DNA of 64,000 nucleotides from Oscillospiraceae bacterium (lineage in GTDB: Bacteria > Bacillota > Clostridia > Oscillospirales > Oscillospiraceae): positions 47,991 through 111,990 of the forward strand of contig CACYXC010000003.1 in NCBI GenBank assembly GCA_902778285.1. The letters run 5' to 3'. Made by a program: the position numbers and the translations under genes. Shown here in pieces: positions 2,036 to 63,867 of the stretch. The notes below the pieces were generated by a model, which was given only the letters and a program-made list of their open reading frames with translations, had not been told where the DNA came from and did not search any database. Each line of letters starts with the position of its first letter. The stretch's first letter is position 1.

Positions 2036-2195
2036 CAATCTGTCGACAAGGTGTCGACAGATTGAGAGGCAAAAAATGGGAACTTCTGAAAAAGTTCCCA
2101 TTTTTGCACAGATTGTACTGCGAAAGGGGATTACCGTCCCCTCTCGCGCTCTCCCCATGCAGGTCCGACTCGTTCTGCAGGGGTTCGTCTACTGC
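2036..2195 (-). mobile_element. Terminator-associated short repeat element, copy A (degenerate)
   Basis: This is one of four related copies in the window (others at 28542-28755, 43306-43448 and 54348-54475). Shared parts are the palindromic end with TGTCGACA arms around a short spacer, a hairpin that includes GGGAACTT/AAGTTCCC, a CGAGAGGGG segment, and GCATGGGGAGAGC. It lies next to a terminator hairpin (2001-2034) on one side. A second hairpin copy is not visible on the other side, where the alpha-galactosidase stop codon follows 12 bases later. It groups with copy B through GTCGGAC followed by CTGCATGGGG. No protein-coding capacity is credible. Confidence 0.8.
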
Positions 2196-8509: not shown

Positions 8510-8850
8510 GCTCTATTTCTCCCAAAAATCGAAAAAGCGACATGTGCACTCGCACACGTCGCTTGTATGGACGGACGGGGCACCCGCCTCAGGCGGCTGC
8601 CGTTGTCACAATGGGATCAGAGTCTATATAGCAAAGATTACTTTTACTACTCTTATTGACCATTTTACAAGTTTGTGTGCCGGATAATAGTAACCAACTT
8701 TGCAAAACTTGCGCTCTTAACGCAATCAATAAGGCAACAGAAGTTGCCGCCGCGTTCCGCGGAGAATCGGCATTCGACCCGGCTGTCCGTATGGCCTTGG
8801 CCCCGAAGGGCGGTCGACATCCTGCTTCAGATAGACGCTATCCGATTGAG
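8510..8850 (-). ncRNA. Long structured leader of the potABCD operon; candidate cis-regulatory RNA
   Basis: A strong promoter at 8858-8886 would make a leader of about 340 nt before potA. Read on the minus strand it contains a stem closed by TCGACC and GGGTCGA (about 8820-8776) around the hairpin GCCCTTCGGGGC, then CCGCGGAACGCGG, a TTGCG/CGCAA hairpin, a GCCGCCTGAGGCGG hairpin, and finally a strong terminator hairpin ending in a T tract. I do not recognise an Rfam class in it. No coding frame on either strand looks real. A second weaker -10 (TATATA near 8625) could start a shorter transcript. Confidence 0.45.
8535..8564 (-). terminator. Terminator/attenuator hairpin directly upstream of potA
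   Basis: A 13-bp stem with one mismatch is followed on the minus strand by TTTTTCGATTTTT and then, within about 15 bases, by the potA ribosome binding site GGGAGA. A terminator this close to the start codon implies conditional read-through into potABCD. Confidence 0.75.
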
Positions 8851-18928: not shown

Positions 18929-18933
18929 CCAAG

Positions 18934-19051
18934 TGTCTTCAGGGCAGGGTGAAATTCCCGACCGGCGGTATAGTCCGCGACCCACCGTTTTCGGTGGCTG
19001 ATTCGGTGCAATTCCGAAACCGACAGTTACAGTCTGGATGGAAGAAGACGG
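18934..19051 (+). ncRNA. FMN riboswitch (RFN element)
   Basis: The conserved aptamer segments appear in order: AGGGCAGGGTGAAATTCCCG, ACCGGCGGTATAGTCCGCGA, a variable CCACCG/CGGTGG arm, TTCGGTGCAATTCCGA, ACCGACAGT and AGTCTGGATGGAAGAAG. It binds flavin mononucleotide and here precedes a terminator and the riboflavin transporter gene, so high FMN should stop ribU transcription. Confidence 0.97.
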
Positions 19052-19084
19052 GGAAATCATATATTCCTGTCTTTCCTTTCACTG

Positions 19085-28513: not shown

Positions 28514-28541
28514 AGCGGCACACCCGGAAGGGTGTGCCGCT
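28514..28541. terminator. Terminator hairpin, left copy flanking element B
   Basis: AGCGGCACACCC-GGAA-GGGTGTGCCGCT, 17 bases past the kinase stop. The same hairpin with one base changed recurs at 28756-28783. Confidence 0.8.
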
Positions 28542-28755
28542 GAGACTGTAGACAAACCTATACAGAACAAGTCGGACTTGCATGGGGAGAGCGCGAGAGG
28601 AAGATTCCCCCGGCGGGGGAAATGTCAGCGAAGCTGACAAAAGGGGGGGCGGAGATTGGTTATTCCCTCTCGCGTTTGATATCCTCAAAAATGAGAACTT
28701 TTTCGAAAGTTCTCAATTTTGATTCTCAAGGTGTCGACACTTTGTCGACAGCTTG
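28542..28755 (+). mobile_element. Terminator-associated short repeat element, copy B
   Basis: At 214 bp this is the longest of the four copies. It starts GAGACTGTAGACAAAC and ends TGTCGACAGCTTG, the imperfect terminal inverted repeats of the family. Inside are GCATGGGGAGAGCGCGAGAGG, TTCCCTCTCGCG and an AAAATGAGAACTT/AAGTTCTCA hairpin. Relative to copy D an extra block of about 50 bases (CCCCCGGCGGGGG, GTCAGCGAAGCTGAC, a G7 run) interrupts the CGAGAGG arm, itself apparently a nested repeat. The 28-bp terminator hairpin is present on both sides with one mismatch. Confidence 0.85.
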
Positions 28756-28783
28756 AGCGGCACACCCGGAAGGGCGTGCCGCT
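28756..28783. terminator. Terminator hairpin, right copy flanking element B
   Basis: AGCGGCACACCC-GGAA-GGGCGTGCCGCT, matching 28514-28541 in 27 of 28 positions. A third, more diverged version with the loop in the opposite sense lies at 28936-28963 next to the recG end. Confidence 0.75.
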
Positions 28784-43165: not shown

Positions 43166-43305
43166 TTTGTCGAGCTGCACCCCACCCGCCGAAAACGCAC
43201 CCCGGGGGATGTAGCCAAGCGGCGCGAATACGAACACCCGGCGTTCGACTTTCGCGCCATCTCCAGCACAGAAAACCGAGGATTTTTCTTTGAAAATCCT
43301 CGGTT
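43166..43305 (+). other. Possible gene remnant and first terminator copy before element C
   Basis: Directly after the acetyltransferase stop, and in the same frame, sequence reads VELHPTRRKRTPGDVAKRRE and YEHPAFDFRAISSTEN. It looks protein-like but has no start and runs into the terminator hairpin at 43274-43305, so it is probably the tail of a lost gene. I do not recognise the family. Confidence 0.3.
43274..43305. terminator. Terminator hairpin, left copy flanking element C
   Basis: AACCGAGGATTTT-TCTT-TGAAAATCCTCGGTT. The identical 32 bases recur at 43449-43480. Confidence 0.85.
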
Positions 43306-43448
43306 CAAGCTGTCGACAAAGTGTCGACAGCTTGAAAATCAAAAATGAGAACTCCCCAAAAAGTTCTCATTTTTGAGTATATCAATCGCGAGAGGGAATA
43401 ACCCCCATGCGTGTCAAACTTCGGCAGCATGGGTTTGTCTACAGTCTG
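43306..43448 (-). mobile_element. Terminator-associated short repeat element, copy C
   Basis: The 143-bp copy is in the reverse orientation to B and D. It runs from CAAGCTGTCGACA to TGTCTACAGTCTG, the two ends being imperfect inverted repeats of 13 bp. It shares CATGCTGCCGAAGTTTGACA and the CCCTCTCGCGATTGATATACT segment with copy D, but lacks the AGAGCGCGAGAGGGGATTGG block and has an added TGAGAACTTTTT/AAAAAGTTCTCA-type hairpin. It is bracketed by an exact 32-bp duplication of a terminator hairpin. Confidence 0.9.
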
Positions 43449-43480
43449 AACCGAGGATTTTTCTTTGAAAATCCTCGGTT
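43449..43480. terminator. Terminator hairpin, right copy flanking element C
   Basis: Exact copy of 43274-43305, followed by TTTAC. Confidence 0.85.
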
Positions 43481-54317: not shown

Positions 54318-54347
54318 AAACACCGGCACTTTCAAGTGCCGGTGTTT
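54318..54347. terminator. Terminator hairpin, left copy flanking element D
   Basis: AAACACCGGCACT-TTCA-AGTGCCGGTGTTT, 15 bases after the metallopeptidase stop. The identical 30 bases recur at 54476-54505. Confidence 0.88.
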
Positions 54348-54475
54348 CAGACTGTAGACAAACCCATGCTGCCGAAGTTTGACACGCATGGGGAGAGCGC
54401 GAGAGGGGATTGGTTATTCCCTCTCGCGATTGATATACTCAATTTTCAAGCTGTCGACACTTTGTCGACAGCTTG
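54348..54475 (+). mobile_element. Terminator-associated short repeat element, copy D
   Basis: The 128-bp copy runs from CAGACTGTAGACA to TGTCGACAGCTTG, terminal inverted repeats matching at 10 of 13 positions. Inside are CATGCTGCCGAAGTTTGACA, GCATGGGGAGAGCGCGAGAG, CCCTCTCGCGATTGATATAC and a palindrome AAGCTGTCGACA-CTT-TGTCGACAGCTT at the right end. It is bracketed by an exact 30-bp duplication of a terminator hairpin and is the cleanest member of the family. Confidence 0.92.
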
Positions 54476-54505
54476 AAACACCGGCACTTTCAAGTGCCGG
54501 TGTTT
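54476..54505. terminator. Terminator hairpin, right copy flanking element D
   Basis: Exact copy of 54318-54347, followed by TTGATATGTTTTGG; it also serves the minus-strand oxidoreductase gene ending at 54523. Confidence 0.88.
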
Positions 54506-63533: not shown

Positions 63534-63867
63534 AAAGCTTCCGAAAACGGCGTGTGATTCTATACAGCTTTAGTACATACGGCTCTCTAAATTCAACGCA
63601 ACAATGACTGTCGGATGGCGAAATCAATCCTCGTTTGATTTCGCCATCCGATGATCATTATAATGACAATAAGATGGCGAAAAGCCAAAAAGCTTTTCGC
63701 CGCGCCGCTTTGCGGCGCAGCAAAACAGCGCGGCTGTTTTGCCATATTTTCATTGCAATGAGCATCGGGCGAATGATTCAAAGAATCATTCGCTGCCAAA
63801 CAACGAGTTTGGCAGTGAAATCAACCGGATCATCGGTTGATTTCACTATCCGATGATCATTATAAAA

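Follow-up and report, generated by a model that had tools for sequence, protein, structure and literature searches.

Short elements flanked by duplicated hairpins in an Oscillospiraceae genome and their likely partner, an IS1182-family insertion sequence

The genome of an Oscillospiraceae bacterium contains a large family of short elements that very probably are MITE-type passengers of a subgroup of IS1182 insertion sequences with the ends CAGACTGnnGACAAA, and the hairpin at their palindromic targets very probably sets the duplication that accompanies insertion. We observed the characteristic anatomy of these elements, the match between duplication and hairpin, a lone hairpin at unoccupied sites and, within this genome and genus, an IS1182 insertion sequence with the same left end. 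The analysis started from a window of 64,000 nucleotides, the whole stretch of DNA analysed, and was extended to the remaining genome, to the genus and to more distant bacteria.

Results

The window contains four related elements of 128–214 bp, copies A to D, all of which were claimed in the original prediction and found at the coordinates given here. They have imperfect inverted ends and are too short for a transposase, coding capacity being judged by length only. The cleanest of the four is copy D, an element of 128 bp with the ends CAGACTGTAGACA / TGTCGACAGCTTG (54348–54475, plus strand) that lies between identical 30 bp copies of a target hairpin on the left (54318–54347) and on the right (54476–54505). 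Copy C, 143 bp long and on the minus strand (43306–43448), has a 32 bp hairpin at its right end (43274–43305) and an identical one at its left end (43449–43480). At copy B, which has the left end GAGACTGTAGACA and a length of 214 bp (28542–28755, plus strand), the 28 bp hairpin at the left end (28514–28541) recurs with one mismatch at the right end (28756–28783). Copy A (160 bp, 2036–2195, minus strand) has a degenerate left end, beyond which no second hairpin was found, and a lone hairpin (2000–2035) adjoins its right end. The hairpin direct repeats of 28, 32 and 30 bp that had been described at three sites were seen at copies B, C and D, where the hairpin sequence is different at each site but the same within a site, which upholds the view that the hairpin belongs to the target and not to the element. 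No Rfam family matched any of the four elements at the gathering threshold; in the whole window, Rfam searches returned only an FMN riboswitch (18931–19053), a hit to SpF59, an sRNA family of Streptococcus (8767–8816), and a tRNA.

A search of the window's own genome (2.43 Mb in 76 contigs) with copy D, as had been recommended earlier, yielded 82 matching pieces by BLAST and thereby revealed a large family. The left-end motif CAGACTGTAGACA was found with at most one mismatch at 132 sites of the genome, compared to 2 for the reversed control, and at least five of these 132 sites belong to a full insertion sequence (IS) and not to a short element. Among 41 genomes from the genus, the own genome included, 23 contained relatives of copy D. 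The elements are short, non-coding as judged by length only, and numerous, and they have inverted-repeat ends, which are the characteristics of MITEs. For the analysis of the flanks we used 124 motif sites in the stretches fetched around the listed places (100 of the 132), a number that includes chance matches to the motif. A hairpin adjoined the left-end motif in 111 of the 124 sites, four of them left ends of the full IS, compared to 10 of 248 control positions located 75 and 110 bp upstream of each site. Among the 97 testable sites, defined by the presence of the hairpin and at least 400 bp of downstream sequence, a second copy of the hairpin followed downstream in 85 at 80% identity or more and in 82 at 90% or more, while the hairpin of another site, swapped in as control, reached 80% in a single case (1/97).

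Copy A and, at the 90% threshold, 15 of the 97 testable sites deviate from this pattern. Among the 12 sites without a second hairpin at 80% identity, L009, L013 and L038 still have a direct repeat of 20–24 bp, L015 and L061 reach assembly gaps and L020 is nested; the count of 85/97 was left unadjusted for all of these. Of the 13 sites without a strong hairpin, L050, L109 and L120 have weaker hairpins and L077 has a 6 bp duplication and others resemble chance matches to the motif; all 13 were kept in the denominator of 124. The hairpin-flanked pattern is far beyond chance.

The shape of the duplication was determined at sites preselected for a hairpin and a second copy of it. There were 83 such sites, and both element ends could be set in 81 of them (L021 and L045 were dropped). 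The duplications were 20–44 bp long with a median of 28 bp (n=81), and their two copies were exactly alike in 63/81, the limit of at most two mismatches between copies being inherent in the construction of the measurement. Symmetric positions were at least 80% complementary in 71 of the 81 duplications, compared to 1/81 after shuffling. The first base of the duplication was A in 76/81 and the last base T in 74/81, indicating that most joins lie at an A-T pair close to or directly at the base of the stem; since the next bases outside also pair in 56/81, joining does not in every case take place at the outermost pair. The target hairpins had no evident common primary sequence when compared by eye. 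In these cases the duplication spans the hairpin, and its length varies with the hairpin.

Most of the targets look like intrinsic terminators and are regarded as putative ones. At least four A among the eight bases on the left side were present in 56/81 and at least four T on the right side in 55/81, neither side being favoured; an A or T tract, counted like the others without a control set, accompanied the hairpin on at least one side in 70/81, as expected for terminators, and on both sides in 41/81. An exception is L113, where the element lies inside the palindrome of another repeat family and the target is no obvious terminator. For this reason the element seems to use DNA palindromes in general, with terminators as the commonest kind, and the earlier proposal that it recognizes terminator hairpins would hold for most targets and probably not for L113. 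This second palindromic repeat family, GGATGGCGAAATCAATCG...CGATTGATTTCGC, occurs in the window at about 63600–63860 and in L004, L005, L053, L086, L091, L113 and L120, and can be a target of the element in L113 and probably in L015. In L077 (minus strand, around 3239; C28 of the own genome), a copy of the element resides in an apparent coding region with a duplication of only 6 bp (AGAACT), which is the middle of GGAAGAACTTCC, as though the loop alone of a tiny palindrome had been duplicated. Three consecutive elements occupy a single target in L024 (minus strand, 1050–1686), where a nearly unchanged hairpin precedes the first element, separates it from the second and recurs behind the second, indicating that a used hairpin can serve again.

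Whether an empty site holds one hairpin or two had been named beforehand as a test that could refute the prediction. The comparison at site D used the gene that adjoins copy D, for which a search of 100 relatives returned loci from 29 members of the genus. The element motif (at most two mismatches) was absent next to this gene in 27 of the 29 relatives, over the 300 bp inspected (186 and 207 bp for two of them), and all 27 unoccupied relatives had a hairpin at most 44 bp from the aligned gene end. The sole case of a second hairpin among the 27 was L285, in which it is farther off, weaker and different. Among the other loci, L263 has a related element of its own, flanked by another hairpin in two identical copies, and L276 contains the right end of a full-length IS followed by a hairpin, the left end not being found on the stretch behind the right end. 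The unoccupied relatives are other species with hairpin sequences unlike that of the window, and the comparison therefore gives the position and the number of hairpins and not the descent of individual letters. Sequence-level evidence came from the repeat family of L113 within the same genome: one hairpin was present in 7/7 unoccupied copies on the fetched stretches, two surround the element in L113, and the unoccupied copy in L053 has exactly the hairpin sequence that is found twice in L113. Site C had no synteny in the 29 relatives and gave no information on empty sites. The outcome, a single hairpin in 27/27 relatives at site D and in 7/7 paralogues, supports the central claim of the original prediction, according to which these are non-autonomous transposable elements that use hairpins as insertion sites and duplicate them completely.

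Some of the left ends in the genome lead into a different sequence, in which a promoter-like stretch and a start codon are present, and represent a full IS. Five such left ends are present in the window's own genome, all at contig ends. The left end of the full IS was matched in 16 of 101 genomes of the genus, the own genome included, and nothing was found with it in plasmid and phage collections. The full IS of the genus is 1.64 kb long and encodes a transposase of 507 aa (L188), located behind the left end CAGACTGTAGACAAAG. Against NF033551, the NCBIfam model for IS1182, the transposase that follows the left end CAGACTGTAGACAAA scores 444.9 bits (cut-off 270), in agreement with an earlier hint at the IS1182 type, and it contains the domains PF05598, PF13751 and PF01609. 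In the own genome, a search with the transposase recovered nothing but its C-terminal residues, which lie at five contig ends, and a search for PF13751 gave no match because the IS is broken at contig ends. Several of the broken ends can be paired by their hairpins: these are identical on the left and right contigs L060/L339 and L195/L337, the pair L160/L336 has a common stem and a different loop, and the right-end hairpin of L340 matches the one at the left end of the short element L016. For L051, L196 and L338, no hairpin partner was found among the contigs read, and altogether an identical partner is lacking for three of the five contigs with a left end of the IS and for three of the five with a right end. 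In genome G062 (assembly RGIG6117), the left-end contig L161 and the right-end contig L256 have the same hairpin. It had been proposed to look for a transposase gene that carries the ends of the element, and such a gene was found with regard to the left end, where 15 bases are identical between the short elements and the IS; at the right end only 11/15 bases agree, and mobilization of the short elements by the IS can for this reason be called likely only. We consider an IS1182-family insertion sequence the likely autonomous partner of the short elements.

Members of the IS1182 family are single-gene elements of approximately 1.3–2.0 kb with terminal inverted repeats. The partner IS has a transposase of the DDE type, the size and inverted repeats of this family, and palindromic targets. 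When genome contigs were scanned with the transposase, 62 loci were obtained, of which 40 were full-length copies, defined by two ends 1350–1800 bp apart; these copies span 1.42–1.74 kb with both ends present. The same hairpin stood on both sides in 30 of the 40 copies, several of which share one genome, and 25 of these 30 reached a simple stem score of at least 8. The 30 hairpin-duplicating copies come from Lachnospiraceae, Bacillus, Priestia, Anoxybacillus, Ureibacillus, Streptococcus, Enterococcus, Hutsoniella and other Clostridia, Eubacteriales and Bacilli. No matching hairpins were found in the remaining ten (L200, L208, L212, L219, L223, L229, L243, L244, L247 and L251), five of which (L200, L212, L219, L223 and L243) have clear but different hairpins with a score of at least 8 on both sides. 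L200 and L212, which are the same copies as L188 and L189, are the only two complete copies found in the genus of the window, which consequently provides no complete matching copy on a single contig. The mismatched flanks could have arisen by recombination between copies or from chimeric assemblies.

More distant relatives gave a mixed picture. Four members from the plasmid collection were analysed (L342, L343, L344 and L346). A relative from Rhizobium binae with 36.7% identity duplicates a 20 bp hairpin, a relative from Sinorhizobium meliloti with 25.3% identity has a 6 bp duplication, hairpin duplication was not seen for ISCfr1 (28.3% identity), and the element ends could not be set for L342 (54.7% identity). 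In the copy L341, which is named ISEfa7 and neighbours an IS256 gene, the ends are the same and the hairpins do not match. Hairpin duplication is not peculiar to the short element and is found also in full-length IS1182 elements of other Bacillota and in one from Rhizobium, and it seems to be tied to the CAGACTG subgroup, as judged from few cases outside it.

Discussion

We propose that the transposase inserts at DNA palindromes, mostly those resembling intrinsic terminators, and that the two 3' ends of the element would be joined to the two 5' feet of the palindrome, one per strand. The single-stranded stretches on each side would then span the whole palindrome, and their copying by repair would leave a complete hairpin on each side of the element, with the consequence that the hairpin and not the enzyme would set the length of the duplication (20–44 bp). 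The palindrome is probably extruded as a cruciform when it is attacked. In the discussion of PMC5678879, duplication of the whole stem-loop is drawn as pathway b, only as a possible pathway, and the elements described here behave in the way expected from this duplicating pathway. When a terminator consisting of A tract, hairpin and T tract is the target, each tract would after insertion still lie beside a hairpin, and both neighbouring genes should therefore still terminate. Insertion may in this way be nearly neutral for the neighbouring genes, with termination probably kept on both sides. Beyond the elements of this genome, we cautiously favour the more general view that a widespread IS1182 subgroup gauges its target by the extruded hairpin, with strand transfers at the 5' feet of the cruciform and a variable duplication set by the shape of the target, and that non-autonomous derivatives exploit terminators as a near-harmless niche.

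DDE transposases usually produce duplications of nearly fixed length, which results from the fixed spacing of their two active sites. The finding that the duplication of 20–44 bp tracks the hairpin suggests that DNA structure, and not enzyme geometry, sets the spacing. Alternatively, the transposase might read the palindrome as a duplex and, contacting linear DNA as an ordinary dimer, cut it with a long stagger, with no cruciform involved. The first A (76/81) and last T (74/81) of the duplication constitute a mild sequence preference that such an enzyme could explain, but we regard this alternative as rather unlikely because the length of the duplication varies with the hairpin from 20 to 44 bp and the targets are, by eye, without an evident common sequence. 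It also seems improbable that a different transposase moves the elements and that the common left end reflects convergence or decay. The agreement of the right ends in only 11/15 bases and the lack of a PF13751 match in the own genome would fit this explanation, yet the 15 identical bases of the left end and the same kind of target and duplication within the same genome speak against it, and the search with the full protein located fragments of the IS at contig ends.

A further objection would be that no target duplication occurred at all and that the hairpins belong to the element itself or were produced after insertion by tandem duplication or gene conversion. The mismatched flanks of 10/40 full-length copies, both complete copies of the genus among them, could be cited in its favour; we judge it very improbable, since the hairpins vary among sites but match within each site and a single hairpin was found in unoccupied relatives and paralogues. 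Group IIC introns insert beside terminators, and for this reason an element similar to them or another RNA-based element that targets terminators was considered as well. The terminal inverted repeats, the long duplications and the DDE transposase partner, together with the absence of an Rfam match at the gathering threshold for the four elements, make an RNA-based origin hardly conceivable. Our preferred reading remains that of MITE-type passengers of an IS1182 element at palindromic targets.

The closest systems for comparison are IS1272 of Staphylococcus, an IS1182-family member which, according to PMC5678879, replaces its stem-loop target and for which joining at the 3' feet was proposed, and TnSha1. 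As described in PMC5678879 and PMC4923244, these elements have in common with ours an IS1182-family transposase and hairpin targets, which show no preference in primary sequence and include several confirmed terminators; in contrast to our elements, whose insertion leaves two complete hairpins, IS1272 and TnSha1 make no duplication and replace or delete the target stem-loop. The insertion mode of IS1272 was not observed here, as hairpins were present on both sides in 82/97 sites of the own genome and in 30/40 full copies. The full-length IS1182 elements of the CAGACTG subgroup are more similar, having ends like CAGACTGTAGACAAA / TTTGTCTACAGTCTG and a hairpin on both sides in 30/40, but they carry a transposase (ISEfa7 is an annotated name), for which the window elements of 128–214 bp are too short. 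Short non-autonomous IS1182 derivatives of 160 and 169 bp are known as ISMac2-related MITEs of Methanosarcina acetivorans; we take the values 26, 4 and 25, 0 given for them in a table of PMC3852290 to be the lengths of inverted and direct repeats, which would mean that they differ in having no long duplication. RUP, BOX and SPRITE of pneumococcus and REP elements are likewise small and mostly intergenic repeats, for which a target duplication of the whole hairpin is not mentioned in passages of the review PMC10969869. IS1182 is listed among the families over-represented between convergent genes in PMC9208149, and nothing relevant was found in passages of PMC2828477 and PMC4438569.

Hairpin targeting by IS1182 members and IS1182-related MITEs are thus already known, whereas the observation of whole-hairpin duplication is apparently new: searches of the open-access literature found no report of it as an observed outcome. 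ISfinder reportedly lists long direct repeats for IS1182 elements, and curators may for this reason already know of whole-hairpin duplication. The elements could provide natural examples for the pathway that was drawn as a possibility in the discussion of PMC5678879, beside the target-removing IS1272. If the cruciform model is true, cruciforms would have to be common enough in living cells for approximately 100 uses in a single genome. The arrangement also suggests a cheap way of filling a genome, as each insertion would leave a hairpin by each neighbouring gene and can create a fresh target.

The left end was additionally found in elements of other architecture. L168 and L174 from relatives in the genus and L208 at about 319–369 (GAM79) contain tiny palindromic elements of about 50–70 bp that consist of the left end and its own inverted copy, and in L168 and L174 the hairpins differ between the two sides. 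In L091 (minus strand, 1534), a short element with the same left end has a different body with a GTCATTCTGAGCGAAGCGAAGAATCTC-type repeat.
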